Below, piece by piece: positions 169 to 62,984 of a stretch of DNA of 64,000 nucleotides. Below the pieces are notes generated by a model that was not told where the DNA came from, searched no databases, and saw only the letters and a program-made list of their open reading frames with translations. Position 1 is the first letter of the stretch. Each line of letters opens with the position of its first letter. The stretch lies in assembly GCF_003008595.1 (NCBI RefSeq), contig NZ_CP027669.1, forward strand, positions 1,674,001 to 1,738,000. Direction: 5' to 3'. Origin of the DNA: Simplicispira suum. Its GTDB lineage: Bacteria > Pseudomonadota > Gammaproteobacteria > Burkholderiales > Burkholderiaceae_C. The position numbers were made by a program, and so were the translations under genes.

Positions 169-1008
169 GTGCCAAGCGTGACCCTCCCTGTGCCCCCCTC
201 AAGTCCCCTCCCTGCTGGTTCGGCGGCTTCGCGCCACCAAGACGCAGAGCAGGCCCCCGCACTGCTGCTGGCCGCCGGCCGTGGGGAGCGCATGCGGCCG
301 CTGACCGACCACACGCCCAAGCCCCTGCTGCAAGTGCACGGCCGCCCGTTGCTGGCCTGGCATTTGCACGCGCTGGCGCACGCCGGCGTGCCGCGCGTGG
401 TGATCAACACCGCCTGGCTGGGCGAGCAGATTACCGAGCATTTTGGAAGCTTTTTTGGCCTCCAGCGCACGACTGATAAGCGCGAGCAGCTATCAATTTC
501 ATACTCCAACGAAGGCCTCGACTTTGGCGGCGCGCTGGAGACAGCGGGCGGCATTGCACGCGCCCTGCCGCTGCTGGACTCGGACGTGTTCTGGCTGGCG
601 GCGGGCGATGTGTTCATGCCGGCTTTTGGCTTCGCCGCGGCAGCCGTGCGCGCCTTTCGCCACAGCGGCGCGCTGGCGCGCCTGTGGCTGGTGCCCAACC
701 CGCCGCAGCACCCGCGCGGCGATTTTGGCCTCTCGGACGCCGGCCTGGCGCTGAACCTGCAGGAGGCCGACCCACGGCCCCGCTACACCTACAGCACCGT
801 CGCCCTGCTGCACCGCGATCTGTTTGCCCCGCCCTGGTGCGATATTGCGCCCGGCAACCCGCAAGGGGTACGCGCGGCACTGGCACCGCTGCTGCGCCGG
901 GCGATGGACAATGGCCGCGTGCAGGCCGAACTTCACACTGGCCGCTGGGTCGATGTGGGTACGCCGCAGCGCCTGGTCGACCTCAACGCCGAAACCTTGT
1001 CACCATGA
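169..1008 (+). CDS. murU: MurU-like nucleotidyltransferase (N-acetylmuramate-1-phosphate uridylyltransferase family)
   Basis: The nucleotidyltransferase signature LLLAAGRGERMRPLTD with TPKPLL is at about residues 33-54, followed by HGRPLLAWH, a GGALETAGGI loop and the GDVF metal-binding region, which is the MurU/RmlA-like sugar-phosphate nucleotidyltransferase pattern. MurU makes UDP-MurNAc in the peptidoglycan recycling route of Pseudomonas and relatives; that role here is inferred. The catalytic loop precedes the first in-frame ATG, so the start must be a GTG at 169, 178 or 190; 169 is a guess and no good ribosome site is visible. Residues about 95-113 are encoded by a dispersed palindromic repeat inserted in frame (451-506), which lengthens a loop compared with the family. 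The stop overlaps the next gene's start (ATGA at 1005-1008). The usual partner kinase amgK is not adjacent. Confidence 0.75.
   Translation: MPSVTLPVPPSSPLPAGSAASRHQDAEQAPALLLAAGRGERMRPLTDHTPKPLLQVHGRPLLAWHLHALAHAGVPRVVINTAWLGEQITEHFGSFFGLQRTTDKREQLSISYSNEGLDFGGALETAGGIARALPLLDSDVFWLAAGDVFMPAFGFAAAAVRAFRHSGALARLWLVPNPPQHPRGDFGLSDAGLALNLQEADPRPRYTYSTVALLHRDLFAPPWCDIAPGNPQGVRAALAPLLRRAMDNGRVQAELHTGRWVDVGTPQRLVDLNAETLSP
451..506 (+). repeat. Dispersed palindromic repeat, copy 1 (inside murU, in frame)
   Basis: The copy reads GGCCTCCAGCGC, then GATAAGCGCGAGCAGCTATC, matching the other copies in this window. It is translated as GLQRTTDKREQL within murU without breaking the frame. The hairpin is partly degraded, because the left arm after AGCGC has diverged. 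Confidence 0.75.
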
Positions 1009-2414
1009 CCCTCACCCCGCCCCTCTCTTTGTATGCCGAGCGCCGCGCGCGCCTGGCGGCCCAGCTTGGCCCTGGCGGCATCGCCATCGTGCCGACCGCA
1101 CCCGAACGCCAGCGCAACCGCGACAGCGACTTCCCGTACCGGCACGACAGCTACTTCTATTACCTCACGGGCTTTGCCGAACCCCATGCCTGGCTGGTGC
1201 TGACCGCTGAGGGCCAGAGCACCCTGCTGTGCCAGCCCAAGGATCTGGAGCGCGAAATCTGGGACGGCTACCGCCTGGGCCCCGACGCCGCCGTGGCCGC
1301 ACTGGGGGTCGACGCGGCGCTGCCCGTGGGCGAGCTCGACGCGCGCCTGCCCCGCTTGCTGGAAAACCGCGAACGCGTCTGGTTCCCCTTTGCCACGCAC
1401 GACGGCCTGGCCGCGCGCGTCGAAGGCTGGCTGGCCAAGGTGCGCGAGCGCGTGCGCTACGGCGCGCTGTGCCCGCAGCAGCAAGGCGACCTGTGCGCGC
1501 TGCTGGACGAAATGCGCTTGGTGAAGGACGCGCACGAAATCGCCCTGATGCGGGGCGCCGGCGCCATCAGCGCACGTGCCCATATTCGCGCCATGCAGCG
1601 CTCGGCACGCATGCTGGCGGCGGGCGAAGACCTGCGCGAATTCCACCTCGAAGCCGAACTGCTGCACGAGTTCCGCCAAAGCGGCGCCGAAGCACCCGCC
1701 TATGGCTCCATCGTCGCCGCCGGCGCCAACGCCTGCGTGCTGCACTACCGCGCCGACCGCGCGCAGGTGCGCAGCGGCGACCTGGTGCTGATCGACGCGG
1801 CCTGCGAACTGCACGGCTATGCGAGCGACATCACACGCACCTTCCCCGCCAACGGCAAGTTCACTGGTCCCCAGCGCGCGCTCTACGACGTGGTGCTGGC
1901 CAGCCAGGAAGCCGCCATTGCCGCCACCCGGCCCGGCGCGCGCTTTACCGACCCGCACGACGCGGCGGTGTTGGTGCTGGCGCAGGGCCTGCTCGACCTG
2001 GGCTTGCTCGACAAAGCCCAGCACGCCAGCGCGCAGGACGTGGTGGCAACCCGTGCTTACTTCCCTTTCTACATGCACCGCACCGGCCACTGGATCGGCA
2101 TGGACGTGCACGACTGCGGCAGCTACGTCGAGCCTGCCGAACAAGGCCAGACCAGCGAGCGGCGCGATCCCCTGTCGGGCGAGCTCATCGTCGACCGGCC
2201 CAGCCGCATCCTGCGCGCCGGCATGGCGCTGACCATCGAGCCCGGTCTCTACATCCGGCCCGCCCCCGACGTGCCCGAGGCCTTCCACCACCTGGGCGTA
2301 CGCATCGAAGACGACGCCATCGTGACCGACGCCGGCTGCGAGCTGCTCACGCGCGGGGTGCCGGTGGCGGCCGAGGCGATTGAAGCGTTGATGGAAGAGG
2401 CTGCGTCTCGCTGA
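1005..2414 (+). CDS. pepP: Xaa-Pro aminopeptidase (M24B family)
   Basis: A 469-residue protein with the creatinase-like N-terminal domain (RNRDSDFPYRHDSYFYYLTG near residues 35-55) and the C-terminal pita-bread metallopeptidase domain. Metal ligands of the M24 family are visible: Asp in LIDAACELHGYASDITRTF (two Asp, about residues 263-275), His in HRTGHWIGMDVHD, Glu in TIEPGLYIRP and Glu in GVRIEDDAIV. It removes N-terminal residues that precede proline and works in the cytoplasm. The start was chosen because ATG at 1005 overlaps the murU stop and matches the usual N-terminus; upstream sequence in the same frame is a murU shadow. Length is close to that of other PepP proteins. Confidence 0.92.
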   Translation: MTLTPPLSLYAERRARLAAQLGPGGIAIVPTAPERQRNRDSDFPYRHDSYFYYLTGFAEPHAWLVLTAEGQSTLLCQPKDLEREIWDGYRLGPDAAVAALGVDAALPVGELDARLPRLLENRERVWFPFATHDGLAARVEGWLAKVRERVRYGALCPQQQGDLCALLDEMRLVKDAHEIALMRGAGAISARAHIRAMQRSARMLAAGEDLREFHLEAELLHEFRQSGAEAPAYGSIVAAGANACVLHYRADRAQVRSGDLVLIDAACELHGYASDITRTFPANGKFTGPQRALYDVVLASQEAAIAATRPGARFTDPHDAAVLVLAQGLLDLGLLDKAQHASAQDVVATRAYFPFYMHRTGHWIGMDVHDCGSYVEPAEQGQTSERRDPLSGELIVDRPSRILRAGMALTIEPGLYIRPAPDVPEAFHHLGVRIEDDAIVTDAGCELLTRGVPVAAEAIEALMEEAASR

Positions 2415-2419
2415 GGCCA

Positions 2420-2531: not shown

Positions 2532-3110
2532 TTACATGCCGTACTTGCGCTTGGCGTCGGCCACGCAGCTGTCCTGCTCTGCGCCCTTGAGCGCGTCGCA
2601 GCGTTCCTTGGCGGCCTTGTAGTCGGCTTCGTTCTTTTCGTGTGCAGCGTCTTGCTTGGCTTCGGCCACGTCGGCGCGTTTTTCGCTCATGTTGTCGGCG
2701 GGCTTGGCTTCGGCGCGCGCCACCTTGGCGTTTTCAAGCGCGCGCACGTGGGCAGCCTTGGCGTCCTTCTTGCAGACGTCCTTGGCGTTGCCAGCGGCGT
2801 CGTCGCACTTTTCCTTGGCGACTTCGTAGTTGGCATCGGCGCGCGCCTTGGCTACCTTGTAGGCCGACTTGTCGCTGGGCTTGTACTGGGCTTCGAGTTC
2901 GGCCTTGGCAATGTCTTCGGTGCCCTTGGCTTCCTTCATGCAGACGTCCTTGGCGTTGTCCTTGAGGACGTCGCACTTTTCCTTGGCCATTTTGTAGTTG
3001 GCCGAAATGCGGTCCTTGGCAGCCGAGTGTTCGGCCTTGTCCATGGCCATGCCGGTGGTGGCTACCAGGCCGGTAAGCGCCAGGGCGATGAGGTTGCGGG
3101 TGAAGTTCAT
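2532..3110 (-). CDS. Periplasmic protein with three CX10C repeats, function unknown
   Basis: A 192-residue protein with a signal peptide (MNFTRNLIALALTGLVATTG, cleavage near MAMA/D). After it come three related units: NYKMAKEKCDVL..DVC, NYEVAKEKCDDA..DVC and DYKAAKERCDAL..DSC. Each has two cysteines with exactly ten residues between them (C46/C57, C102/C113, C171/C182). Spacers are Lys/Ala/Glu-rich and almost certainly helical, so each unit looks like a short helical segment with a possible disulfide. I do not recognise an enzyme family; small secreted Lys/Ala-rich proteins of this kind are usually annotated hypothetical. It lies 22 bases after a CsbD-like gene on the same strand, and that pairing suggests a stress role by inference only. 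Confidence 0.7.
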   Translation of the reverse strand: MNFTRNLIALALTGLVATTGMAMDKAEHSAAKDRISANYKMAKEKCDVLKDNAKDVCMKEAKGTEDIAKAELEAQYKPSDKSAYKVAKARADANYEVAKEKCDDAAGNAKDVCKKDAKAAHVRALENAKVARAEAKPADNMSEKRADVAEAKQDAAHEKNEADYKAAKERCDALKGAEQDSCVADAKRKYGM

Positions 3111-3567: not shown

Positions 3568-4242
3568 TCAGGGCGCCGTGCGGTCCACCCAGGCGGACAG
3601 CTCGCGCGCCGCCTGGCGTGCCGCCTGCGCCAAGGCAGCGGCGCCGCCCGCCGCATCGGCGCTGGGGGCGCTCTGGTGCGCTTCGAAGACGCGCTGGGCG
3701 CGCAGGCGCTCGCCCTGGGGTGTGGGTTCAGCGAGCGTGGCGCGCAGGCGCAGCACGCCCTCGCTTTGGCTGGGCGCGCTGAAGACCTGGCTGAATTCCT
3801 CCAGCTCGATGCGCAGCACCAGCAGACTGCCGTTGCCTTCGCGCGCGGCTTCGCGTGCGGCGCGCAAACCCAGCACGGCGCGCTCTGCGCCGAGTTCGCC
3901 GGCCACGCTTTGTTGCACCAGCCGGCCTGGCGGCTGGCTCCAGCGGGCACGCTGGTAGGCGCGCAGTTGCCGGGCGTCGTCATAGCCCAGGCGGTAGTGC
4001 AGGGCGGTGCTGCCCTCTGGCAGGCCGGGGCTCTCGACATCGGCCAGCACCAGCGGCGCGCGCTGCGGCGCTGTTGCCGCGCCCTGCGCTGGCGCCCGGC
4101 TCGCACCTGGGCCAAAGTCGTACACCACGGGGGGCACCGGCGGCGCTGGCAAGGCCGAGCATGCAGCCAAAAAAGTCAAGCAAAAAATGGCTCCAACGCT
4201 TATCCGTAGGGCGCTAACAGCTATATTTTTCATAGTATTCAT
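3568..4242 (-). CDS. ABC-type transport auxiliary lipoprotein of an Mla/MCE system
   Basis: A 224-residue lipoprotein with signal peptide MNTMKNIAVSALRISVGAIF and lipobox LAAC (Cys28). The rest fits the ABC_trans_aux family (PqiC-like): YDFGP near the start, repeated hydrophobic strands, LHYRLGYDDARQLRAYQRARW, and a C-terminal helical AAALAQAARQAARELSAW. Such lipoproteins are partners of MCE transporters and sit on the outer membrane facing the periplasm. It is the last gene of the four-gene operon, seven bases after the MCE gene. The signal peptide is encoded by a copy of the dispersed repeat (4181-4238), described separately. Confidence 0.8.
   Translation of the reverse strand: MNTMKNIAVSALRISVGAIFCLTFLAACSALPAPPVPPVVYDFGPGASRAPAQGAATAPQRAPLVLADVESPGLPEGSTALHYRLGYDDARQLRAYQRARWSQPPGRLVQQSVAGELGAERAVLGLRAAREAAREGNGSLLVLRIELEEFSQVFSAPSQSEGVLRLRATLAEPTPQGERLRAQRVFEAHQSAPSADAAGGAAALAQAARQAARELSAWVDRTAP
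4181..4238 (+). repeat. Dispersed palindromic repeat, copy 2 (encodes a lipoprotein signal peptide on the minus strand)
   Basis: The plus strand reads AAAAAATGGCTCCAACGCTT, then ATCCGTAGGGCGCTAACAGC, then TATATTTTTCATAGTA, aligning base for base with the other copies. On the minus strand this becomes the start region and hydrophobic core of the lipoprotein signal peptide. Confidence 0.75.
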
Positions 4243-4249: not shown

Positions 4250-5230
4250 TCACTGCGGGTTGCGGGCCGGGGCTACAAAACCCGGTTCACCCGGCCCAGG
4301 GCGGGCCGGGCCGGATCCATAGATGAAGCCCTGGGGGTTGGCGCTGACGTCGGCGGCCGTGCGGGTGATCTGGCGCGCTGCGCGGCCCGTGTCGTCGGCA
4401 GCGCGCTCCAGGCTGGGCAGTGTGCTGGCCTTGAGCCGGTCGGCCGCCTGCGAGAAGGTTTGCGCCCCGCGCGCGGCCTGCTCGATGGGCCCGCCGGGGG
4501 CGTTGAGGCGCTGCGCGGTCTGGCCGAAGGTATCGGCCATCACCGAAACCTGGTCGCCCGCCTTCTTCAGCGACTGCACCGCGCCGCTGGCGTCCTTGGC
4601 GAGTGCGGGCAGCGCGGCCAGGGCGGGGTCGAGGCGCTCGGTCACGCTGCGGTCGATCCGCCGCGCGAGCACATCGAGGCTGGACGCCGCATTGCCGATA
4701 TTCATCAGTGCTTGCGAGAAGCGCTTTTGGTTGTCGTCGGCGAGCAATTGGTTGATCCGTTTGCTCGCTTCCTGCACCTGACCCAGGATCACCGGTCCTT
4801 GCTCGGAGAGTTGGGCAAAGGGGGACGAGTGCAGTGGCAAACGAGGCAGACCGCTCGGCCCAGGGGGCAAGGGCGGGTGGGCCTTGCCAGCGTCGTCAAG
4901 CAGGATGTACGACAAGCCCGTAACGCCCTGGTAGCCCAACGTGGCAAAGGTGGTGGGGGTGATGGGTGCGTCGTCGTCCACGGCGATACGGATCAGCACG
5001 TTGCCGCTGACCTGTGGGTCAAAACCGATGTGCGTGACCTTGCCCACCGCCACGCCCTTGTAGCGCACGGCGGCCTGGGGCTGCAGGCCGCTGACGCCGT
5101 CGCGCGTGGTCAACTCGTAGGCGACGTAGTCGCCGTTGTCGCGGGTAAGCCACATGGCCAGCGCCACCACCATGGCGCTGACCGCCAGCACGAACAACCC
5201 GGCGGCGAGCGCGTGGGATTTGTTTTCCAT
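4250..5230 (-). CDS. MCE-domain substrate-binding protein (MlaD/PqiB-like)
   Basis: A 326-residue protein with one N-terminal membrane helix (about residues 8-28) and a single MCE domain (about 38-118: GVSGLQPQAAVRYKGVAVGK, GLSYILLDD). A long helical C-terminal region follows, including FAQLSEQGPVILGQVQEASK, and a Gly/Pro-rich tail. MCE proteins form hexameric rings or tubes that move phospholipids between the inner and outer membranes. Its ATG overlaps the stop of the upstream ATPase gene (TGATG). The tail is longer than that of E. coli MlaD, fitting the family whose periplasmic helices extend to a partner lipoprotein. Confidence 0.88.
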   Translation of the reverse strand: MENKSHALAAGLFVLAVSAMVVALAMWLTRDNGDYVAYELTTRDGVSGLQPQAAVRYKGVAVGKVTHIGFDPQVSGNVLIRIAVDDDAPITPTTFATLGYQGVTGLSYILLDDAGKAHPPLPPGPSGLPRLPLHSSPFAQLSEQGPVILGQVQEASKRINQLLADDNQKRFSQALMNIGNAASSLDVLARRIDRSVTERLDPALAALPALAKDASGAVQSLKKAGDQVSVMADTFGQTAQRLNAPGGPIEQAARGAQTFSQAADRLKASTLPSLERAADDTGRAARQITRTAADVSANPQGFIYGSGPARPGPGEPGFVAPARNPQ

Positions 5231-7481: not shown

Positions 7482-7540
7482 TATCAAAATGGGGCGTTTG
7501 CGCATATGTCGCAAGCCCTGATTGCTATTGAATAAGTAGC
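7482..7540 (+). repeat. Dispersed palindromic repeat, copy 3 (divergent promoter region)
   Basis: A diverged copy: TATCAAAATGGGGCGTTTGC, then GCATATGTCGCAAGC and ATTGCTATTGAATAAGTAGC. It aligns with the family along its length but the hairpin arms have decayed. It lies in the only intergenic space between the divergent permease and GMC oxidoreductase genes, so any promoter there must overlap or flank it. Confidence 0.5.
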
Positions 7541-7587
7541 TTTTCATGGCAATTCCGTCACATTTCACGCCATCTTTGGACCTCTGC

Positions 7588-27905: not shown

Positions 27906-27908
27906 AAT

Positions 27909-27965
27909 GCTATCTAATTAGTAGCTTGTAGCGCTTGCTGAACAAGCGCTGAAGGCACTTTTCAT
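27909..27965 (+). repeat. Dispersed palindromic repeat, copy 4 (directly after a stop codon)
   Basis: Reads GCTATCTAATTAGTAGCTTG, then TAGCGCTTGCTGAACAAGCG and CTGAAGGCACTTTTC, the reverse orientation of copy 1. Arms AGCGCTTG and CAAGCGCT form a perfect eight-base hairpin with loop CTGAA, differing from copy 8 by a compensated base pair. Confidence 0.85.
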
Positions 27966-27991
27966 TCAATATTTTCCACTGCAAACCTCCA

Positions 27992-28022: not shown

Positions 28023-28056
28023 CAGACCGCTCTTGCCGAGGGTCGGACAGGCGTGC

Positions 28057-30045: not shown

Positions 30046-30187
30046 ACGAACCGTCCCCTGTGAGTTGAAACATCGAAGGGGCTATTGTGCAAAAGCGCCG
30101 TGGTACCGGTAGCCGCTTGGGCCTGTTCCGAAGTGCCGTTTGGGACGGAAACGGGACTCGGCCAACTATGTGCAGGGGATTTATTTA

Positions 30188-30243
30188 GCTATTGTTATGA
30201 TAGCTATTAACGCTTTCTGAATAAGCGCCAGAATCCATTTCTA
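30188..30243 (-). repeat. Dispersed palindromic repeat, copy 5 (intergenic)
   Basis: Reads GCTATTGTTATGATAGCTAT, then TAACGCTTTCTGAATAAGCG and CCAGAATCCATTTCTAC. It lies eight bases past the end of the amidotransferase gene on the minus strand. The hairpin arms are partly conserved (ACGCTT with AAGCG). Confidence 0.75.
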
Positions 30244-34006: not shown

Positions 34007-35695
34007 TCACCCCGACGCCCACAAGCCCGCGCCATGTCCGCGCGTAAAAGCCTCTTCAAACACCGAGTAGCCGGACCAATCGGCGTGGGCAAAGGCCAGC
34101 CGCGCCGTCGCGGGTGTAGGCAGGGCGCGTTGTTGCTCTCCATTCAATAGCTGCTTGCGCCCTACAGATAAGCGCTGGAGGCCGATTTGACTCAATATTT
34201 TGAGGCCGCCGGGGCGCGGAATGGCCATGGCGTGGCCGTAGCGCGTGACCTCCGCACGCTCGACGCGTTCGCGCAAATCGGGGTGCGGCAGGCTGAGCGC
34301 GGCGATGGCCGCTTCTGCCCAGTGCTGCCAGGGCTGGCGCGCCAGCTGCGCGCGGGCATCGGGCACATCGCCCAGCGCCTGGTAGTAGGTCAAGACCGTG
34401 GGCAGGGTGACTGCGGCGCGCGGGTCCAGCCGCTGGTGGCCGGCGTCGACATAGCCCAGGCCGCCGGCCGCGCCGTCCTGGTAGAGCACGTTGTCCCAGG
34501 CTGGCGCGGCGCCCGGCCGGTCGGTGAGCGGGCCGGAAATGGCCAGGTTCGTCACCAGCCAGGGCGCCCAGGCCAGTTGTCCGGCGGCGGCGCGCAGGAA
34601 GTCGGGCGGGCTTTGCACCACGCGCGCCGCAATGAACACCGGCAGGGCGACCACGCAGCGCTCGGCCTGCCAGCGCTCGACCTGGCCGCTGCTGTGGTTG
34701 AAGGCGTCCACCTGCACGCCGCCGGGCAGCTCGGTGATGGCCAGAACGCTGCACGCGGTGTGCAGCTGGCCAGCCTGCCGCAGCGGCGCGGCCAGTTGGC
34801 GCGCCAGCCAGCCATTGCCCTCGGGCCAGGTGAGTACGCCGCCTTCGTCCCCGCCGCCTTCTCCGGGTGCCGAAAAACCGTGCCGGCTGGCGAAGTAGTG
34901 AATCCCGGCCCAGGCCGACACCACCGCACTGCCAGCGCCGTAGTCGTCGCGGCAGCAGTAGTCAAGGTACCAGCGCAAATGCGGGTCGTCCAGGCCCTCA
35001 CCTGTCAGCCAGCTATCAAAAGTGATAGCGTCCAGCGCAAGCAGGATCTGCGCTGGAGGCATTTTTGACCCCCAATCGGCAAAGCTGGGCATGGCAAAGC
35101 GCGCAGCGCGCGAGAGCGTCTCGACGCGGCGCGCAAACAAACGGTACTGCGCCAGCGTGCGCGCACCCACGCCTTGCACTGGCAGCAGTCCCTCGTGCCA
35201 TTGGCCTTGCCAGAACAGCCGCTCCTGCGGGCTGTGGCAAAGGGTGAATTCGTCGTAGCGCCAACGCCCAGCCACGCGCTTGCGCAGGCCCAGATCTTCC
35301 AGCAGATCCTGCACTTCGGGCGCGCTGTCGCCTGGCACCGGGAGGTAGTGCGCGCCGTGCGGGCAGGCACGGCCCAGCACGCTGCCGGCGCGGCTGTTGC
35401 CGCCGGCGCTGTCCTCCAGCTCCAGCAGCGCAAGGTCCTGAACGCCCGCCAGCCGCAGCGCGCGCGCCGCCGCCAGGCCTGCAATGCCGCCACCCGTAAT
35501 CAGCACGCGGGTGCGGCGCTGCACGCTGGGCGCGGGCAGGCTGCCGCCCGCCAGCCGATCGCGCAGCGCGTGGCCGCGCGCCATGTCCACGCCCGCAAAG
35601 CCGCCTGCGAGTGGTGCGGGTGCTTGGTCGCAAGCCGAGGACAGCACGGCGGTAGCCGCAGATGCGGCAGCGGTGAGGAAGCTGCGGCGCTGCAT
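34007..35695 (-). CDS. FAD-dependent amine oxidase-like protein with Tat-type signal, containing two in-frame repeats
   Basis: A 562-residue protein with an RRSFL twin-arginine-like motif and lipobox-like LSSAC at the N-terminus (MQRRSFLTAAASAATAVLSS). An FAD-binding GxGxxG-type motif ITGGGIAGLAAARALRLAG is near residue 65, with LLELEDSAGGNSRAG after it; the C-terminal FAHADWSGYSVFEEAFTRG is conserved. It is probably exported with FAD bound. Homologues lie beside spermidine-synthase-like genes, and polyamine oxidation is a possible role (inference). Two stretches, residues about 210-228 and 499-517, are encoded by dispersed repeats (35011-35068 and 34144-34190) and read through in frame. The start was chosen at the twin-arginine sequence; 35725 is an alternative. 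Confidence 0.82.
   Translation of the reverse strand: MQRRSFLTAAASAATAVLSSACDQAPAPLAGGFAGVDMARGHALRDRLAGGSLPAPSVQRRTRVLITGGGIAGLAAARALRLAGVQDLALLELEDSAGGNSRAGSVLGRACPHGAHYLPVPGDSAPEVQDLLEDLGLRKRVAGRWRYDEFTLCHSPQERLFWQGQWHEGLLPVQGVGARTLAQYRLFARRVETLSRAARFAMPSFADWGSKMPPAQILLALDAITFDSWLTGEGLDDPHLRWYLDYCCRDDYGAGSAVVSAWAGIHYFASRHGFSAPGEGGGDEGGVLTWPEGNGWLARQLAAPLRQAGQLHTACSVLAITELPGGVQVDAFNHSSGQVERWQAERCVVALPVFIAARVVQSPPDFLRAAAGQLAWAPWLVTNLAISGPLTDRPGAAPAWDNVLYQDGAAGGLGYVDAGHQRLDPRAAVTLPTVLTYYQALGDVPDARAQLARQPWQHWAEAAIAALSLPHPDLRERVERAEVTRYGHAMAIPRPGGLKILSQIGLQRLSVGRKQLLNGEQQRALPTPATARLAFAHADWSGYSVFEEAFTRGHGAGLWASG
34144..34190 (-). repeat. Dispersed palindromic repeat, copy 6 (inside FAD oxidoreductase, in frame)
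   Basis: On the minus strand it reads CAAATCGGCCTCCAGCGCTT, then ATCTGTAGGGCGCAAGCAGC and TATTG. It is translated as GLQRLSVGRKQLL, very close to the peptide from copy 1 in murU. Confidence 0.85.
35011..35068 (-). repeat. Dispersed palindromic repeat, copy 7 (inside FAD oxidoreductase, in frame)
   Basis: On the minus strand it reads CAAAAATGCCTCCAGCGCAG, then ATCCTGCTTGCGCTGGACGC and TATCACTTTTGATAGC. It is translated as KMPPAQILLALDAITFDS, a different frame from copy 6. Arms AGCGCA and TGCGCT remain. Confidence 0.75.
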
Positions 35696-43341: not shown

Positions 43342-43362
43342 CAATATTGAAGGCGAAGAATC

Positions 43363-46683: not shown

Positions 46684-46700
46684 ATCACGGGAAAAAAATC

Positions 46701-47419: not shown

Positions 47420-47423
<4 letters not shown>
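46701..47423 (+). CDS. Mechanosensitive-channel-like membrane protein (CmpX/TM-helix repeat type)
   Basis: A 240-residue membrane protein with repeated transmembrane motifs of the conserved TM-helix family: LRAFLYQIGAFVPRLLLAVV, VVIAGWLIAKVVRFAIVKAL, VPNVFVALLILAFGAYFARF and SFLVILSGVVFALALAFGLA with GKDWA. These resemble Pseudomonas CmpX and the pore regions of MscS-like proteins, but the cytoplasmic beta domain of MscS is absent. It lies inside the trehalose/glucan operon, 17 bases after treS, and overlaps glgX (ATGA). An osmotic-sensing or osmolyte-release role is attractive but inferred. Confidence 0.78.
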
Positions 47424-49548
<2,125 letters not shown>

Positions 49549-49552
<4 letters not shown>

Positions 49553-54300: not shown

Positions 54301-56477
54301 CGGTCGACGAGATGAACCTACCCGGCAGGCGCGACGCTCTGCACGATGTGCTGGAAGCGCAGTCCTACCGGCTGGCGTTCTGGCGCGTGGCGGCGGACGA
54401 AATCAATTACCGGCGCTTCTTCGACATCAACGAGCTGGCGGCGCTGCGCATCGAGCGCGCAGACGTGTTCGACGCCACCCACGCCTTGCCGCTGGACCTG
54501 GTCGAACGCGGCTGGGTCGAGGGCCTGCGCATCGACCATCCGGACGGTCTGTACGACCCGGCCGGCTACTTTGCGCGGTTACAGCAGTGCTGCGCCGAGC
54601 GCCTCGGGCAGGCGCCAGCTGAGGGCAATGGCCGCCCTGCACGGCCCATGTACGTGGTGGCCGAGAAAATTGCGGCGCCACACGAAGAAGTCCCCACCTC
54701 CTGGGCGGTGCACGGCACCACCGGCTACCGCTTTGCCAACGTCGTGGGCGGTGTCCTGGTCGATACCCGCGCCGCCGAGCGCCTGCGCCGCACCTGGCGC
54801 GCCTTCACCGGCGAGCAATTGGCGTATGCCGATATCGCTTACCAAGGCAAGCGTGCGGTGGCTCGCGAGGCCTTGGCGGCGGAGCTGCACGTCTTGTCCA
54901 CAGCGCTGCTGCGTATCGCGCGGGCGAGCCGGCGTACGCGCGATTTCACGCTCAACACACTGCGGCTGGTGTTGTCCGAAATCGTGGCCTGCCTGGGGGT
55001 GTACCGCACCTACATCGTGCAGACGCCCTCGCCGCAAGACGTTCACTACATCGACCTGGCGATCGAGCGCGCGCGCCAGCGTGGCCGTGCGGCCGACCCC
55101 TCAGTGTTCGCTTTCGTGCGCGAAGCGCTGCTGGGCCGCGCCCCGCCTGGCGCCCTGCCTGGCACCGAAGCCCGCGCCTTGCGTTTTGCCACACGCTTTC
55201 AGCAGTTCAGCTCCCCGGTCGCGGCCAAGGGCGTGGAAGACACGGCTTTTTATCGCTATTTTCCCCTGAGTTCGCAGAACGAAGTCGGCGGCGAGCCCGA
55301 CGTCATCGGCATGAGCGTGACGGCCTTTCACCGCGCCAGCGCCGACCGCGCACAGCGCTGGCGCCACACCATGCTGGCGACCTCGACGCACGACAACAAG
55401 CGTTCCGAGGATGTGCGCATGCGCATCAGCGTGCTGTCCGAGCTGACCGGGTTGTGGCGGCTGTCGCTGCGGCGCTGGCACAGTCTCAACCTGCCGCTGC
55501 GCAGTACCCTGGCGGGCGGGGTCGACGCGCCGTCGGCCGAGCACGAATACCTTTTCTACCAGACCGTGTTGGGTACCGTGGGCCCCCGCGATGCGATCGA
55601 CGACACCGGTTACGCGGTCTATATCGAGCGCATCGTCGCCTACATGCAGAAGGCCGCGCGCGAAGGCAAGGCCTGCACCAGCTGGACGCGGCCCGACGAA
55701 GCCTATGAGGGCGCCCTGTCGGGGTTCATCCGCCAGGCACTGGCGCGCAGTGGGGGGAGCCGCTTCCTGGACGAGTTGCATGCGCTGGCCGACACGCTGC
55801 GCTGGCACGGCGCGCTCAATTCATTGGCCATGGTGCTGCTCAAGTACACCAGCCCCGGCGTGCCGGACCTGTACCAGGGAACCGAGCTTTTCGATGACAG
55901 CCTGGTCGACCCCGACAACCGACGCCCGGTTGATTTCCTACAGCGGCGCACGTTGCTGGAAGACTTGCGGGACTTGGCCTCGTCTGGCGACGCCCGCGCG
56001 CTGGGCGTCCAGGTGGGCAAATGGTCCCTTCAGCCAGCGGATGGCCGCGCCAAGCTGTGGCTGGTTTGGCGCCTGCTGGAGCTGCGGCGCGCTCAGCCAG
56101 CCCTGCTGCGCGATGGCAGCTACGAACCGCTGCGTGTGCGCGGCGCGCGTGCACCGCATGTCATTGCCTATTTGCGCCGATTCGAGGGCGCGTGCATGGT
56201 CGTGTTGGTTGCCCGGCTGACGGCGACGCTGGAGCAGGCTGCCGGCCATGCCCCTGCGGAGAAGTCGTCGACCTCCTCGCATGTTTTGACCGGGGAAGGC
56301 ACTTGGCAAGACACCTGGGTCGCCGTGCCGCAGGCCCTGCGCGGGCTGGCGCTGACCGATCTCGTGGGCGGCCGGACGCTCAGCACGGAGAATGGACGAT
56401 TGCGCCTGGCGGAAATTTTTGTGCACTTTGCCGGTGCAGTTCTTGTGCACCAGCCTGACCACCCGTCGGTGGATTAG
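51396..56477 (+). CDS. treY: Fused 4-alpha-glucanotransferase (MalQ) and malto-oligosyltrehalose synthase (TreY)
   Basis: A 1693-residue fusion. Residues 1 to about 705 are MalQ (GH77): LQLHSLRSARNWGIGDFTDL, GLNPLHALFAHNP, SPYSPSSRVFLNALYLDI, AIRIDHVMGLMRLFCIP, VIGEDLGTVADEVRA and STHDLATLAGWW. Residues about 720-1693 are TreY (GH13_26): ATYRLQFHGGFRFDAAACIV, MHGYDVVAPGEVNPELGGME, LLLDLVPNHMGVLGADNPWW, GLRIDHPDGLYDPAGYF, VVAEKI and TSTHDNKRSEDVRMRISVLS. All catalytic blocks of both enzymes are visible, so both halves are probably active. MalQ reshuffles short maltodextrins and TreY turns chain ends into trehalosyl groups for TreZ. It is the last gene of the operon. Confidence 0.93.
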   Translation: MTERPLDELVRRCADKGIATEYHDIWGKRHAVAPEHLAALLDAFGGSAQVDTEDGGPDASAGEPVRVVAPGATSVVLSFPLADAGTVPTWRLVLEDGASLSGLCQRTADARVVVDFGSALPQGYHQLQVGADLPATLLICAPTRCHLPAALQGDGRAWGVTLQLHSLRSARNWGIGDFTDLMQFCAQAARRGVGMVGLNPLHALFAHNPLHISPYSPSSRVFLNALYLDIEAIADFAACTATQHKVRAPIFQERLAALREAPFIDHVGVSAVKRELLHDLYAHFQTRAASDPEVAAYQQYCVQRGTALHQHALFEALQENLHSADPAVWGWPVWPAQFQDPQSPAVAAFAAEHAERVGFYQYVQWQAERQLAAASACCREAGMSVGLYLDLAVSVDRAGADAWRHQGAFALGASVGAPPDEFNLNGQDWGLPPLRPDRLRAAHYQAFIEALRGNMRSAGAIRIDHVMGLMRLFCIPTGADARGGAYVHYALDEMLAIVALESERNQCLVIGEDLGTVADEVRAAMQGADVLSYRLLYFERDVDGHFRPPQAYPRDALVAVSTHDLATLAGWWAVLDLHDRMAMALFPNAQVFEQQLLDRAQERVQLLLAVQHATDLPPEAVAQALGADHLSPEAVLAVHAFLAATPARLMVLQLEDALGERGQANMPGTTHEHPNWRRKYGTPLEAIWDQSMLPALCASLSALRPSPERTAVGARAAGTVIPRATYRLQFHGGFRFDAAACIVPYLAALGISHVYCSPIQRARPGSMHGYDVVAPGEVNPELGGMEGLARFSQVLKAHGMGLLLDLVPNHMGVLGADNPWWTDVLENGEASLYAQHFDIDWEPLNAELVGKVLLPVLGDHYGDVLERGELQLQWHVEQGEMALHYHEHRFPLAPQSYPLVLERALARLGDPELAASLASLQTALRQLAAAAAPSAERLAERAREKERHKARLARLTAKHEVVAQAIAAAVDEMNLPGRRDALHDVLEAQSYRLAFWRVAADEINYRRFFDINELAALRIERADVFDATHALPLDLVERGWVEGLRIDHPDGLYDPAGYFARLQQCCAERLGQAPAEGNGRPARPMYVVAEKIAAPHEEVPTSWAVHGTTGYRFANVVGGVLVDTRAAERLRRTWRAFTGEQLAYADIAYQGKRAVAREALAAELHVLSTALLRIARASRRTRDFTLNTLRLVLSEIVACLGVYRTYIVQTPSPQDVHYIDLAIERARQRGRAADPSVFAFVREALLGRAPPGALPGTEARALRFATRFQQFSSPVAAKGVEDTAFYRYFPLSSQNEVGGEPDVIGMSVTAFHRASADRAQRWRHTMLATSTHDNKRSEDVRMRISVLSELTGLWRLSLRRWHSLNLPLRSTLAGGVDAPSAEHEYLFYQTVLGTVGPRDAIDDTGYAVYIERIVAYMQKAAREGKACTSWTRPDEAYEGALSGFIRQALARSGGSRFLDELHALADTLRWHGALNSLAMVLLKYTSPGVPDLYQGTELFDDSLVDPDNRRPVDFLQRRTLLEDLRDLASSGDARALGVQVGKWSLQPADGRAKLWLVWRLLELRRAQPALLRDGSYEPLRVRGARAPHVIAYLRRFEGACMVVLVARLTATLEQAAGHAPAEKSSTSSHVLTGEGTWQDTWVAVPQALRGLALTDLVGGRTLSTENGRLRLAEIFVHFAGAVLVHQPDHPSVD

Positions 56478-56516
56478 AAGGCCTCGCGCAGGCATCCCAA
56501 GCGGGATGCCCGCCCC

Positions 56517-56764: not shown

Positions 56765-57661
56765 CTATTTGTGGCTGCCGCCGGTGGAAAAGCCGCCGTA
56801 CGAACCACCGCTGCTGCGGGTGCCGCCGCCGGACGGTCCCGAGCAATTGGACAGCAGCGAGAGCAGGACGATAAGCACGATGGCGATGATGAACAGCGTG
56901 CCGCAGCCGATGCTCTTGGTCGCCACGAACGGACCGGGGTCGTCGCGCTTGAGCAGGTCGGCCTTGTCGGTGAGGCCAAACGCCTTGGCGACGGTATCGC
57001 TGGCCAGCTTGTCGCCGGCCGACCAGGTGACTTCGCTGGGCGTCTTTTCGAGCGACAACAGGCCCTTGCTGCTGGCGAAATCGCGGTTGCTGGTGCGCTG
57101 GCCGCGCTCCACCTTCCAATAGAACTCACCCAGAACGTAGGTGGTTTCGGCCTCGTATGCGGACTGCAGCTGGTAGGTGGTTCCAAGATAGCTGGCGCTG
57201 CGGCCGTTTTGCACCATCTGCGGTGCGCCGGTGGTTGGGCTCACCATGCTCCAGCCATCGCTGCTGTCGACCAGAAACGAGAAGCCGCGCTTCTGGTTGT
57301 AGAGCAGGTACTCGCTCCAGCCGAACTGTTCGTCGTCGCCAGGCTCTTGCCCCATGCGGTGCTGAAAGCCCACGACCTGCCAGTGCACACCCTGCAGCTG
57401 GCCCTTGCTGCCCAGCGCGATGATGGGGCGCACCGGTTCGTCCTGTTCGGCAAACGCCAGCTCGGCGCCCACGCCTTTGTCGAGTGCAATGATGCTTTTG
57501 CACGAGGGGCAGGTGATGCTCTTGCTGCCCGGCAGCATGACCTGCACGGGTGCGCCGCAGTTTGGGCAGCTGAACTGGCGGCCTTGCTCGTCCTTGGCCG
57601 ATTCGTCCTTGAGGCCCTGGAGCTTCAGGTCTTCCAGCAACACGGCGCGGCCGCGGTCCAC
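56765..57661 (-). CDS. Zinc-ribbon/DUF4178 protein, C-terminal half (probable frameshift partner)
   Basis: 298 codons from a GTG at 57661. It has a zinc ribbon (FSCPNCGAPVQVMLPGSKSI, then TCPSCKS), a second DUF4178 domain (about residues 85-215) and a C-terminal membrane helix (GTLFIIAIVLIVLLSLLSNC) with a Gly/Ser-rich tail. The start lies inside the preceding gene by 37 bases in another frame, and DRGRAVLLEDLKLQGLKDES looks like the continuation of that gene's product. A single inserted base would fuse them into a protein of about 505 residues with two ribbon-DUF4178 units, which I believe is the normal form. Role unknown; linked to SPFH and DUF350 genes. Confidence 0.75.
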   Translation of the reverse strand: MDRGRAVLLEDLKLQGLKDESAKDEQGRQFSCPNCGAPVQVMLPGSKSITCPSCKSIIALDKGVGAELAFAEQDEPVRPIIALGSKGQLQGVHWQVVGFQHRMGQEPGDDEQFGWSEYLLYNQKRGFSFLVDSSDGWSMVSPTTGAPQMVQNGRSASYLGTTYQLQSAYEAETTYVLGEFYWKVERGQRTSNRDFASSKGLLSLEKTPSEVTWSAGDKLASDTVAKAFGLTDKADLLKRDDPGPFVATKSIGCGTLFIIAIVLIVLLSLLSNCSGPSGGGTRSSGGSYGGFSTGGSHK

Positions 57662-58248
57662 CGCTGGCGGCTGGTGTCGATGGAGAGCACCTCGCCGTCG
57701 CTGCTGCGCAGTTCGATCAGGTCAAACAGCTGGCCAAGTGGCGGCAATTTTGGTAGCTCGCCCTCGGCCGAGATGAGTTGCGCCTGGCCCGTATAGGCAA
57801 CGCTGTAGGCCTTCCCATCGAGGCTGACACTGGCGCCGGGGCGCAGTGCGGCCACGTCGGGCAGGGGCTGCTGGACGCTGGCCGTGCGGGTAAAGACATA
57901 GGCGCCGTTGTCTTCCGACAAGGTGGCCAGCTCGCCGTCCTGCAGAAAGGCCGTCCACTCGGTCCAGACGCCAGCGTCGCTTTTGTATTGCAGCCGGCCA
58001 ATCAGCGTGAAGGGGTGCTCTTTGCCGTCCAGCGTGATGCGCCCGCTGGCCATGAGCTGCAGCGGGCTGTGGTCGTCGAACAGCTCGGCCATCTTGCCGA
58101 TGCGAGACAGCACCTCGCCATCGCGCACGACCATGCTCTGGCAATAAGGACAGATGGCGTAGGCCGACTGCGCGCTCTTGAACTCCACCGGCGCGCCGCA
58201 GCCGGGGCAGGGCGCGCGGTAGGCGCGCTGGGCGGGTTCAGTAGCCAT
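57625..58248 (-). CDS. Zinc-ribbon/DUF4178 protein, N-terminal half (probable frameshift partner)
   Basis: 207 codons. A zinc ribbon (APCPGCGAPVEFKSAQSAYA, then ICPYCQS) is followed by a DUF4178 domain (about residues 60-190, with FTLIGRLQYKSDAGVWTEWT and FLQDGELATLSEDNGAYVFT). The end reads DTSRQRWTAAAPCCWKT, which does not look like a natural C-terminus, while the next reading frame continues with family-like sequence. So this and the following gene are probably one gene broken by one base near 57660. It follows the SPFH gene, with a dispersed repeat in the gap. Confidence 0.78.
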   Translation of the reverse strand: MATEPAQRAYRAPCPGCGAPVEFKSAQSAYAICPYCQSMVVRDGEVLSRIGKMAELFDDHSPLQLMASGRITLDGKEHPFTLIGRLQYKSDAGVWTEWTAFLQDGELATLSEDNGAYVFTRTASVQQPLPDVAALRPGASVSLDGKAYSVAYTGQAQLISAEGELPKLPPLGQLFDLIELRSSDGEVLSIDTSRQRWTAAAPCCWKT

Positions 58249-58268: not shown

Positions 58269-58324
58269 TTTTTTGGCCTCTAGCGCTTATCTGGTAAGCG
58301 CTAGCAGCTATCTATTTAATAGTA
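58269..58324 (+). repeat. Dispersed palindromic repeat, copy 8 (best-preserved hairpin)
   Basis: Reads TTTTTTGGCCTCTAGCGCTT, then ATCTGGTAAGCGCTAGCAGC and TATCTATTTAATAGTA. Perfect nine-base arms TAGCGCTTA and TAAGCGCTA enclose TCTGG. It fills most of the gap between the SPFH and DUF4178 genes and ends exactly at the SPFH stop codon. Confidence 0.9.
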
Positions 58325-59383
58325 CTACACCAGTTTCTTGAGAAGTTCGGCCTTCTTGCTGTCGAACTCCTCTTGCGTCAGGATGCCCTTGGACTTGAGC
58401 TCGCCGAGCTTTTCCAGCGTCGCCATCACGTCTTCGGCCTTGACGCCTGCTGCCGGTGCGGCAGCAGCTGCCACCGCGTGGGGTTGCGGCGCATTGCCGC
58501 TGCCCTGCAGGCCAGCGGCCAGGTTCTGCGCCATCACCTGGCCCAGCGCCACGCCGGCGCCCAGGCCCATGGCGTCGCCGGCAATGCCACCGCCACCGCT
58601 GCCCGAACCCTCGGCAAACTTCGGGATGGCCTGCGCCGTCTGGTACTGCATGAATTTGCCCATGTCGTTGCCGACCATGCCCATGCCGATTTTCTGATCG
58701 AGGATTTTCTGCAGCTCTTCGGGCAGCGACAGGTTCTGCACCGTCATGCTCTCGACCTTGAGGCCGAGTTTTGCAAACACTGGCGTCAGCTCTTTGGTCA
58801 GCGCGTCGGCAAACATCACCTGGTTGGCCGCCAGGTCCAGGAACGGCACGCCGCTGCCGGCAATGGCGTTGCTGATGTTCTGCAGCACCAGGCCGCGCAG
58901 TTGTCCTTCCAGGTCGCCCACGGGGTAGGCGGGGCGGGTACCCGAGACCTCGGTGTAGAACGCCTTGGGGTCGGTGATGCGGTAGGCGTAGTTGCCAAAA
59001 GCGCGCAGCCGCACCGCGCCAAAGTCCTTGTCGCGGATAGTGATCGGTTGGGGCGTGCCCCACTTCTGGTCAAGTTGCTGGCGCGTGCTGAAGAAGTAGA
59101 CGTCGCTCTTGAAAGGCGACTGGAACAGCTTGTCCCAGTTTTTCAGGTTGGTCAGCACCGGCAGTGTCTGCGTGGTCAGCTTGTGGGTGCCGGGGCCGAA
59201 CACGTCGGCCACCTGGCCTTCGTTGACGAACACCGCCATCTGTGACTCGCGCACCACCAGCACGGCGCCGTTCTGGATTTCCATGTCCGCCATGGGGAAG
59301 CGCCAGGCCAGCGTGCCGTCGCTGTCCTCCGTCCATTCGATGACGTCAATGAACTGTTTCTTGATGAAATCCATGAGGGCCAT
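58325..59383 (-). CDS. SPFH-domain protein with C-terminal SHOCT motif
   Basis: A 352-residue protein, MALMDFIKKQFIDVIEWTED, with the SPFH (virion-core-like) domain: NGAVLVVRESQMAVFVNEGQ, VFGPGTHKLTTQTLPVLTNL, VRLRAFGNYAYRITDPKAFY. A Gly/Ala-rich linker (about 270-310) and a C-terminal SHOCT motif (LEKLGELKSKGILTQEEFDS) follow. SPFH proteins form membrane-associated scaffolds, and this YdjI-like type links to envelope-stress systems. The start was chosen at AGGAG-preceded ATG 59383. It is first in an operon with zinc-ribbon/DUF4178 and DUF350 genes. Confidence 0.88.
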   Translation of the reverse strand: MALMDFIKKQFIDVIEWTEDSDGTLAWRFPMADMEIQNGAVLVVRESQMAVFVNEGQVADVFGPGTHKLTTQTLPVLTNLKNWDKLFQSPFKSDVYFFSTRQQLDQKWGTPQPITIRDKDFGAVRLRAFGNYAYRITDPKAFYTEVSGTRPAYPVGDLEGQLRGLVLQNISNAIAGSGVPFLDLAANQVMFADALTKELTPVFAKLGLKVESMTVQNLSLPEELQKILDQKIGMGMVGNDMGKFMQYQTAQAIPKFAEGSGSGGGGIAGDAMGLGAGVALGQVMAQNLAAGLQGSGNAPQPHAVAAAAAPAAGVKAEDVMATLEKLGELKSKGILTQEEFDSKKAELLKKLV

Positions 59384-61251: not shown

Positions 61252-61316
61252 GTTGATTCAAGAGATTAACACCTCAGACAACAATCAGCCATCGTTCAGT
61301 CCGTTTGGAGGCCACC

Positions 61317-62675
61317 ATGAGTTTTGTGTCTATCGATCAAGTTGTTGAAGCCGCGCCACGCATGGACGCCGCCTGGCTCGACGCACATTGGATGCCGTTT
61401 ACCGGCAACCGCAACTTCAAAGCAGCTCCGCGCATGGTCACGAGTGCCAGCGGGGCTTACTACACCGACAGCGACGGTCGCAAGATTTTTGACGGCCTCT
61501 CTGGCCTGTGGTGCACTGGCCTGGGCCACGGCCGGCGCGAAATCGCCGAGGCTGTGGGCAAGGCTGCGCTGAACCTGGACTACGCGCCGGCCTTCCAGTT
61601 CGGCCACGCGGCATCCTTTGAACTGGCCAACAGGATCAAGGAACTGACACCCGACGGATTGGACTACGTGTTCTTCACCGGCTCTGGATCGGAAGCGGCC
61701 GACACCTCCCTCAAGATGGCTCGCGCCTACTGGCGCGCCAAGGGCCACGCGGGCAAGACGCGCCTGATCGGTCGGGAAAAGGGCTACCACGGCGTGAACT
61801 TTGGCGGCATCTCCGTGGGCGGCATAGGCGGCAACCGCAAGACCTTTGGTCAGGGCATCGAGGCCGACCACCTGCCCCACACCCAGCCGCCCGCCGGCAC
61901 GTTCCAGAAGGGGATGGCCGAGGAAGGAGGCCGCGCACTGGCGGACAAGCTGCTTGACGTGATCGCTCTGCACGACGCGAGCAACATCGCCGCCGTCATC
62001 GTCGAGCCGTTCTCGGGGTCGGCGGGCGTGGTCATCCCGCCCAAGGGCTACCTGGAGCGCATCCGCGAGATCTGTACACAAAACAACATTTTGCTGATTT
62101 TTGATGAGGTGATTACGGCATTTGGCCGCTGTGGCACCTGGACCGGCTCGGAGGCTTTTGGTGTCACGCCGGATATCCTCAACTTTGCCAAGCAGGTCAC
62201 CAACGGTGCCCAGCCGCTTGGCGGCGTGGTGGCCAGCAAAGACATCTACGACACCTTCATGGCGCAGGGCGGGCCGGAATACCTGGTGGAGTTCCCCCAC
62301 GGCTACACCTACTCGGCGCACCCCGTGGCCTGCGCCGCCGGACTCGCGGCGCTCGATATCCTGCACAAAGAAGACATGCCCGGCCGCGTGCAGGCCTTGC
62401 TGCCGCATTTCGAGCAGGCGGTGCACAGCCTCAAAGGCGCCAGGCATGTGGCCGACATCCGCAACTACGGCCTGGCGGCGGGCTTCACCATTGCCGCCCT
62501 GCCGGGTGAGCCCGCGCGCCGCCCGTATGAGATTGCCATGGCGTGCTGGAAGAAAGGCTTCTACGTGCGCTACGGCGGTGACACCATTCAGCTGGCGCCG
62601 CCGTTCATCAGCGAGAAGGCGGAGATCGAGCGCCTGGTGAACGCGCTGAGCGACGCGCTGGCGGAGACGGCCTGA
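61317..62675 (+). CDS. Beta-alanine/omega-amino acid:pyruvate aminotransferase
   Basis: A 452-residue class III PLP aminotransferase. DAHWMPFTGNRNFKAAPRMV near the start and LFDEVITAFGRCGTWTGSEA-type blocks (here LIFDEVITAFGRCGTWTGSE) match the omega-amino acid:pyruvate group. The PLP lysine is in NFAKQVTNGAQPLGG (about residue 287). It transfers the amino group of beta-alanine or another omega-amino acid to pyruvate. The start at 61317 has GGAG seven bases before it. It is divergent from a LysR regulator gene. In relatives such genes often lie beside methylmalonate-semialdehyde dehydrogenase; here a dispersed repeat and the malic enzyme gene follow. Confidence 0.9.
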   Translation: MSFVSIDQVVEAAPRMDAAWLDAHWMPFTGNRNFKAAPRMVTSASGAYYTDSDGRKIFDGLSGLWCTGLGHGRREIAEAVGKAALNLDYAPAFQFGHAASFELANRIKELTPDGLDYVFFTGSGSEAADTSLKMARAYWRAKGHAGKTRLIGREKGYHGVNFGGISVGGIGGNRKTFGQGIEADHLPHTQPPAGTFQKGMAEEGGRALADKLLDVIALHDASNIAAVIVEPFSGSAGVVIPPKGYLERIREICTQNNILLIFDEVITAFGRCGTWTGSEAFGVTPDILNFAKQVTNGAQPLGGVVASKDIYDTFMAQGGPEYLVEFPHGYTYSAHPVACAAGLAALDILHKEDMPGRVQALLPHFEQAVHSLKGARHVADIRNYGLAAGFTIAALPGEPARRPYEIAMACWKKGFYVRYGGDTIQLAPPFISEKAEIERLVNALSDALAETA

Positions 62676-62984
62676 GCACTTAAGCATAGCGTTTTTGCTA
62701 TCATATAGATAGCTATTAACGATTGTCAGATAAGCGTAAGAGGCCAATTTGTATCGTAATTTCGGCTGCAGCCTGGGTGCATAGACTGCGCTAACGAAGT
62801 GGCGGGCTCCGCACCAACGCGCGCTGCCCGAAATGGCGGTTGACGCAGGCCGACTCAAGGGGACGTGTAGCGGTAAGCGCACCGCAAAACTCGCGGCCTA
62901 CAATGGCTTGGCGCTCATGCGAGCGGCTGCGTCAAGCCTGTGACGGAACCCGGCGCGCTGCTGCTCGCCACCGCCGGAGTCCCC
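62676..62984. other. Intergenic region before the malic enzyme gene
   Basis: 309 bases without a gene I can support. The first part holds copy 9 of the dispersed repeat. The remainder (62760-62984) is GC-rich with no clear promoter pair, hairpin with T-run or operator; it presumably contains the malic enzyme promoter. GGAG at about 62976-62979 serves the malic enzyme start. Confidence 0.5.
62698..62755 (-). repeat. Dispersed palindromic repeat, copy 9 (intergenic)
   Basis: Reads CTATCATATAGATAGCTATT, then AACGATTGTCAGATAAGCGT and AAGAGGCCAATTTG. It lies 22 bases after the aminotransferase stop. Arms are partly mismatched (ACGATTG against TAAGCGT). Confidence 0.8.

Follow-up and report, generated by a model that had tools for sequence, protein, structure and literature searches.

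A REP-like family of two-dyad palindromes in Comamonadaceae, possibly retained as a DNA site at gene ends

What are the short palindromes that recur across a 64,000-nucleotide stretch of the Simplicispira suum chromosome (contig NZ_CP027669.1, positions 1,674,001 to 1,738,000; this whole stretch is called the window), and what keeps them there? A first-pass annotation, made from the letters alone, had described a family of nine copies. Alignment and a covariance model confirm all nine places. The dispersed palindromic family is real; it resembles the repetitive extragenic palindromes (REPs), has a high copy number and occurs in Comamonadaceae. With a probability of roughly 0.4 we read it as an old REP-like family whose copies, once spread, are now mostly fixed in place and are maintained as sequence-specific DNA sites at the ends of genes. 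The observed basis is the copy number, a near-constant spacing, a position at stop codons in both orientations, the avoidance of divergent gaps, the occupation of orthologous places and nucleotide conservation inside two genes. The remarkable feature of the family is the constraint on its sequence, which is also found inside two genes.

Copy number and anatomy of the family

All nine noted positions carry the element, and the copies align with a single 1-base gap column, which is due to copy 7. The covariance model R1 was built on eight window copies, with copy 3 excluded. The training copies score 54-68 bits; copy 3 is the weakest, with 19.8 bits (E=0.0033 in the window). The copies and their surroundings are as follows (G numbers denote genomes, G000 being this one).

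452..506, + strand: copy 1, 53.8 bits; within predicted gene 178-1008(+) with a nucleotidyl-transferase domain (Pfam), frame open throughout; G166 has an element at the same place
4183..4237, + strand: copy 2, 61.5 bits; 12 nt past the stop of gene 4250-5230(-); the G166 orthologue is 95% identical
7487..7541, + strand: copy 3, 19.8 bits, weak, outside the training set; in a divergent gap; the same place in G166 scores 27.1 bits
27908..27962, - strand: copy 4, 62.1 bits; 2 nt past the stop of gene 27267-27905(+), in a convergent gap
30187..30241, - strand: copy 5, 55.8 bits; 10 nt past the stop of gene 30252-31226(-)
30149-30205, + strand: inverted partner of copy 5, 18.8 bits, weak; overlaps copy 5 and has dyad 2 in common with it
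34134..34188, - strand: copy 6, 60.8 bits; within gene 34007-35695(-) with an amine-oxidase domain; belongs to an in-frame stretch, about 20 amino acids long, that is absent in outgroups
35011..35066, - strand: copy 7, 60.1 bits; second copy in the amine-oxidase gene 34007-35695(-)
58270..58324, + strand: copy 8, 68.2 bits; directly adjoins the stop of the Band-7 gene 58325-59383(-) and precedes gene 57625-58248(-)
58281..58303, + strand: dyad 1 of copy 8, 9-nt arms and 5-nt spacer, core columns 12-34
58307..58323, + strand: dyad 2 of copy 8, 6-nt arms and 5-nt spacer, core columns 38-54
62696..62750, - strand: copy 9, 65.2 bits; 20 nt past the stop of gene 61317-62675(+); orthologues in G165, G155, G152, G170 and G141

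R1 finds at least 150 matches in the 4.15-Mb genome, those listed all having E < 4e-5, and a 403-kb part of the genome holds 43 non-overlapping matches with E < 1e-4. The copy number was estimated from an 864-kb sample, which consists of the window and two series of evenly spaced 20-kb stretches, 20 in each series. This sample contains 111 copies, 90 of them at 30 bits or more, a count that omits 6 matches overlapping a better match on the opposite strand. Scaling gives about 530 copies in the genome from all 111 and about 430 from the 90 strong ones. The average spacing of about 7 kb that had been noted applies to the window; the corrected genome density is about 128 per Mb (all matches) or 104 per Mb (strong matches). 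The copy number lies above chance, as can be seen from short words counted on both strands of the sample: AGCGCTTAT is found 52 times and GGCCTCNAGCGC 32 times, whereas three Markov controls have 5, 3 and 2 occurrences of the former and 0, 1 and 1 of the latter.

The copies share a core of 55 columns, with one extra base in copy 7, and this core corresponds to the length of about 55 bases given by the first-pass annotation; the conserved unit, however, runs about 12 nt further in the 5' direction. The complete unit of about 67-71 bp comprises an A/T-rich 5' tail, the motif GGCCTC, dyad 1 (9-5-9) and dyad 2 (6-5-6). On the strand that has GGCCTC first the consensus is AAAATTTnAGT nAAATT GGCCTC TAGCGCTTA N5 TAAGCGCTA nn AGCTAT N5 ATAGC A. 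The spacing is nearly constant, since 140 of the 150 matches listed are exactly 55 nt long. The 5' end of the core occurs in two subtypes, AAA and TTTTT. The nine window copies have a GC content of 35-53%, which agrees with the A/T-richness already reported. Copies 4 and 8 had been called perfect hairpins with differing loop-closing pairs; the difference in the loop-closing pairs is confirmed, and helix 1 has nine pairs in copy 8 and eight in copy 4.

No conserved GTAG or CGTC end tag was found in 84 copies, for which four end or foot windows were inspected on both strands; the commonest tag was present in 6/84. No terminal inverted repeats are visible in the consensus. The window has no match in Rfam at gathering scores, and a search of 6 loci at E up to 5 produced one match, which lies outside the element. 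The matches listed are thinner in the chromosome tenth from 3.13 to 3.53 Mb (6 of 150) than in the other tenths (12-23). No replichore strand bias was established in an inspection by eye, without a formal test.

Some copies depart from this plan. At several loci CAGGAGC replaces GATAGC at the 3' end; the GGAG of this variant is present in 11/66 tandem copies transcribed from the complementary strand, in 1/48 of those in the other orientation and in 0/49 convergent copies. Overlapping inverted pairs, which meet tail to tail and share dyad 2, form a symmetric composite of about 93 bp (window 30149-30241; L040:9487-9579, L numbers denoting loci).

Placement at gene ends and age of the sites

The position of the copies relative to genes was determined with a home-made hexamer gene finder. 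Among the 111 sample copies, 27 lie in predicted genes, 18 in convergent, 59 in tandem and 4 in divergent gaps, and 3 at edges; in the window, copies 1, 6 and 7 are inside predicted genes and copy 3 is in a divergent gap. When gaps of at least 50 bp are considered, an element is present in 18/61 convergent and 56/252 tandem gaps; the 4/97 divergent gaps that are occupied compare with 74/313 of all other gaps (p=3e-6), meaning that divergent gaps are avoided. The 59 copies in tandem gaps are close to the end of the upstream gene: the median distance is 10 nt to the upstream stop and 37 nt to the downstream start (p 0.01), and 43 of them are within 30 nt of the upstream stop. Both orientations are used about equally in tandem gaps (31 and 28) and inside genes (13 with the gene, 14 against it). 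Further genes with embedded copies include those for the CCA-adding enzyme (cca), MiaA, GlmU, YgiQ, PBP1C and an HrpA-like protein, whose HrpA score is under the cut-off.

The copies are rarely canonical intrinsic terminators with a GC-rich stem and a U-tract; 3/214 qualify on one strand and 25/214 on the other. The idea that the element substitutes for a terminator was tried and abandoned. A terminator is present in 3/17 convergent gaps with an element and in 13/41 without (p 0.35), and in 4/50 tandem gaps with an element and 28/210 without (p 0.47); neither difference is significant.

The distribution of the family was examined in a sample of 150 genomes of the family (E up to 1e-5, at most 38 matches recorded per genome). 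The element is present in 45 of them, and 24 of these have at least 20 matches. An order-wide search of 250 genomes with a second model (R2) gave 8 positive genomes: 5 are listed under the same family, and the remaining 3 have a single match each. Two genomes listed as family members were negative in this search. All genera that were looked up for carriers are Comamonadaceae, as the first-pass annotation had said of similar sequences. Three plasmid records match. The two from Comamonadaceae, which are independently annotated, show the same placement in tandem gaps; the third match is weak (E 3e-3) and lies in a long gap of a conjugative IncP plasmid from an uncultured bacterium (L343, LC623924.1), where the element-like stretch may mark DNA from a Comamonadaceae host. 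Phages gave no match to the element.

The age of the window copies was judged from the orthologous places in seven relatives, scored only where a flank could be anchored. The element is kept in 1/1 anchored relatives at each of sites 1, 2 and 3, in 6/6 at site 4, 2/2 at site 5, 5/5 at site 8 and 5/5 at site 9; at the threshold used the in-gene sites 6 and 7 have it in 5/7 and 3/6. The intergenic sites stay occupied in relatives, and the family appears largely fixed in place and old. The most similar pair among the 104 copies of this genome with at least 30 bits is 91% identical and the mean identity is 65%, which argues against recent spread in this genome. Site 8 carries the TTTTT subtype and site 9 the AAA subtype in all six genomes compared for each. 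In G141, G152 and G170 the gene that precedes site 4 is likewise followed by an element, but of reversed orientation, so that this place was probably occupied more than once.

The Band-7 locus allows site 8 to be followed across genera. From at least 383 relatives 80 named loci were kept, and 18 of these have the element in the same orientation (model, E up to 0.1). The carriers include Simplicispira, Acidovorax, Diaphorobacter, Paenacidovorax, Paracidovorax and Variovorax. Inspection by eye added two further rows, from Xenophilus and Variovorax, and rows L273 and L281 were placed by eye in the site 8 alignment (A5); one Polaromonas metagenome-assembled genome has the element in the opposite orientation.

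No clean empty site was found among those looked at; in one case the copy of this genome is rearranged relative to G155. G165 (L083:1-760) has a single element for sites 4 and 5, flanked on the 5' side as at site 5 and on the 3' side as at site 4; compared with window 27908-30241, it lacks one element and the peptidase-S9 gene 28057-29973. The arrangement looks as after recombination between two copies in the same direction, or after the reverse gain.

Sequence constraint, in gaps and inside genes

The columns that are conserved among the copies are also those that change least between orthologues. In 16 orthologous pairs, substitutions per site fall from 0.413 in the 18 least conserved columns to 0.181 in the middle 18 and 0.069 in the 19 most conserved ones (rho -0.79), a six-fold difference. 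Ten of these pairs come from sites 8 and 9; the in-gene sites, site 4 and an identical G166 pair were excluded, and the site 5 pair with G165 is perhaps not a plain orthologue. The conserved columns include the unpaired G7, C11 and A37, and the degree of conservation differs between the two arms. Together with the lack of co-conservation between the arms, this indicates that sequence is constrained more than pairing.

Two protein genes allow this constraint to be seen against that of the code. One is the amine-oxidase gene of the window; the other is the gene at L050:3435-5873, whose product we take to be Tex, and for which NCBIfam lists only S1-domain and related families. A codon was called rare when it serves at most 10% of its amino acid in this genome, and homologues, 20 for the amine oxidase and 22 for Tex, were picked by protein similarity; a separate count in Tex covered 17 of 30 rows, with L312, L323 and the rows without the element left out. 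In the amine-oxidase gene rare codons are kept in 61/91 homologue cells inside the element and in 19/308 outside (p 4e-4), and in Tex in 43/81 inside and 12/234 outside (p 7e-4); with both genes pooled the figures are 104/172 inside and 31/542 elsewhere in the genes. The best-kept rare codons are in the AGCTAT region: GCT (17/19 and 16/17), CTA (17/18), ATA (14/16) and ACT (9/9). The CTA of AGCTAT, which accounts for 1.2% of Leu codons, is kept even though dyad 2 has a broken 3' arm at that place.

The embedded copies differ in their relation to the protein. Copy 6 lies within an in-frame stretch resembling FLSQIGLQRLSGKRKQLSNGE, which is present in the genus and in three neighbouring genera (G003, G004, G010). 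L067, L068 and L071 have this stretch in degraded form, and the outgroups L074, L075, L077 and L079-L081 lack it. Dyad 2 of copy 7 is built from the residues LDAxxF, which are found also in homologues without the element. In Tex, two homologues that are 8 codons shorter have T-I-E-K-V-V where the element-bearing ones read GCT ATC GAA AAG ATA GT. At this place in Tex, as also at copy 7, ancestral residues are written in element-like codons.

Competing readings of the element

A sequence that is kept even inside protein genes suggests that something in the cell probably reads these elements. We propose that a sequence-specific DNA-binding protein would recognize the two-dyad array GGCCTC + TAGCGCTTA-N5-TAAGCGCTA + AGCTAT-N5-ATAGC, and that the bound array would mark a boundary at the 3' ends of genes irrespective of its orientation, either as a roadblock to read-through, as a topological site or as both. 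In E. coli, REPs and the bacterial interspersed mosaic elements (BIMEs) act as roadblocks or topological sites at gene ends, and the present element resembles such topological sites in its gene-end position and its independence of orientation. Tentatively, and well short of even odds, this could amount to a chromosome-wide gene-end code, in which several hundred two-dyad sites are served by a lineage-specific reader, selection holds the rare codons in amine oxidase and tex, and site and reader change together.

Several observations weigh against retention as a DNA site. Both the reader protein and the boundary role are steps that we infer. The near-constant spacing is in part built in, because the model prefers gapless copies, and the avoidance of divergent gaps would equally follow if harmful insertions were purged. 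Some rare codons of the element are poorly kept (AGT 3/17, GTT 4/22, GCT 4/12, GGA 5/14); the codon window was set after the alignments had been viewed, and the homologues share ancestry, which is true also of the outside control. The arms, moreover, covary between lineages. In a set of 74 copies from mixed lineages the covariation is 0.223 against 0.182 in shuffled sets, and among 23 orthologues of site 8 it is 0.275 against 0.169, in each case with 0/500 shuffles as high; at this site, two rows from Variovorax and one from Paracidovorax keep the stem with quite different arms. Such joint change also fits selection for a hairpin.

Selection on structure had been suggested by the first-pass annotation, and the arm tests support it between lineages and not within the genome. 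Among the 104 copies of this genome the Watson-Crick fraction equals that of column-shuffled copies (0.717 vs 0.712 for hairpin 1, z 0.6; 0.704 vs 0.709 for hairpin 2, z -0.7). By mutual information, one of the 15 pairs (43-49) ranks first and the next ones rank 46th to 72nd of 1378, so that covariation over the whole genome failed as a proof of structure. The eight window copies give 0.212 against 0.150, a value reached by 20/500 shuffles. The split between sets means that the arms change together between lineages and not measurably within this genome. A shifted arm consensus, GCGCCC..GGGCGC, is common to the 7 copies listed from three loci (L271, L278, L281). Diaphorobacter and Acidovorax loci of like GC content (0.68 vs 0.69) retain the common arms; GC content alone therefore does not explain the change of both half-sites, which weakens GC drift as its cause, and part of the arm change is a shift at the level of the family.

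The covariation could mean that the element acts as RNA, its hairpins protecting or defining mRNA ends under selection on the folded transcript. Copies lie beside stop codons, as REPs do in the sections of PMC3733652 drawn on here, and at site 8 two-sided changes occur in all 9 pairs of helix 1 and in 12/21 pairs when a third, weak helix is included. On the transcribed strand of this site, G-U exceeds A-C in helix 1 (18 vs 6) and helix 3 (19 vs 14), while helix 2 has the opposite balance (4 vs 15). Helix 1 also pairs more fully in gaps, where it is 74-82% Watson-Crick, than within genes, where the figure is 61-64%; the set comprises 214 distinct 55-nt copies from this genome, from hand-picked matches of relatives and from 3055-base loci. 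In the same set the wobble balance does not depend on the direction of transcription (48 and 66 tandem copies, 114 in all; hairpin 1, p 0.57). This result, the absence of arm co-conservation among 104 paralogues, the scarcity of canonical terminators and the conservation of AGCTAT in genes where dyad 2 cannot fully pair make the RNA explanation rather unlikely in our view. That gene conversion or hairpin-templated repair, instead of selection, keeps the copies alike is quite improbable. Such a process would also restore the rare codons inside genes, and the lineage-specific arms occur in all 7 copies listed from the three loci named above. In the least conserved columns, however, orthologues are closer to each other than paralogues are (mismatch 0.413 vs 0.593 expected), and the subtypes stay with sites 8 and 9, both of which argue against wholesale homogenization; short copies of about 65% identity are, in addition, poor substrates for recombination.

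It is improbable, too, that the family is a selfish REP or miniature inverted-repeat transposable element (MITE) moved by a REP-associated tyrosine transposase (RAYT)-like Y1 transposase, with copies alike merely through descent from active ancestors. Its dispersal in both orientations and the in-frame copies in genes would fit, and the genome has one Y1_Tnp gene, which in our reading is RAYT-like by size and single copy. Y1_Tnp is commoner in element genomes (40/45 vs 72/105 others, p 0.008; 22/24 of those with at least 20 matches vs 90/126 others, p 0.04), and it was matched in 30/30 element-bearing genomes, 20 picked from earlier matches and 10 new ones of the same genus. Yet G141, of the same genus and 99% complete, has no Y1_Tnp match and at least 38 element matches, and four more element genomes lack it. 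Y1_Tnp loci can be dismissed as the home of the element: 6/30 (98 kb) have an element within 1.5 kb at E up to 0.5, no excess over this genome's background, which is about 12 per 100 kb, and the genome's own locus, L031 (G000:C1:2420192-2423524), has no match. The mobilizer link raised by the first-pass annotation is therefore not established. Recent copies and GTAG or CGTC tags are lacking, and descent alone would not keep rare codons after insertion. The gene in L031 adjoins an IS110-like transposase frame, read from the translation with no search made. Free single dyads as candidate targets were discarded; by strict patterns, dyad 1 occurs at 4 places and dyad 2 at 4 away from elements in the 864-kb sample.

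In the consulted sections of PMC3733652, REPs are 20-40 bp long, with one stem-loop and GTAG or CGTC tags, and lie mostly in convergent or same-direction gaps near stop codons (<20 bp in convergent ones), some in genes where they code for 20-30 amino acids. The present family is like them in its high copy number, its position at gene 3' ends and its scarcity in divergent gaps; it is unlike them in its unit of about 67-71 bp, its two unlike dyads with near-constant spacers, the absence of either tag, the lack of excess at Y1_Tnp loci and the rare codons kept in two genes. The RAYT/REP system, as described in part of PMC2817692, likewise combines short repeats in more than 100 copies per genome with one Y1-type gene, but here Y1_Tnp loci are not enriched and the family persists in a relative that has no Y1_Tnp match. 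Rickettsia palindromic elements (excerpts of PMC10969869) also occur inside unrelated conserved genes with the frame kept; they are about 150 bp long, while the element here is mostly in gaps. A MITE of Polaromonas JS666, from a genome paper cited in those excerpts, could bear on the element. That the element is the Beta-proteobacterial repeat element (BRE) of Bordetella is hardly credible. According to the part of PMC3110155 used here, BRE is a short dispersed repeat that was also counted in Comamonadaceae, with up to 29 copies in Polaromonas JS666, but it is about 90 bp long, has 69% GC in Bordetella (above the genome mean) and is often tandem; BRE was compared and set apart by description, not by sequence.

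The literature searches found no paper that recognizably describes the element, short sequence words being returned only from unrelated papers, and no accepted name, as the first-pass annotation had held. As far as these searches go, the family is undescribed. It is common to regard high-copy palindromes as selfish debris that is put to use now and then. Old copies at places shared across genera, with rare codons held in two genes, offer a handle on the function of REP-like elements, and if the reader protein exists, several hundred gene ends would be affected in a large environmental family.

Two further observations concern the window itself. Direct repeats spaced 168 nt apart are present at 2594-3051, within predicted gene 2532-3110(-). 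The genes at 38845-56515 are absent from the syntenic contigs of G165, where the flanks are 126 nt apart, and of G155.

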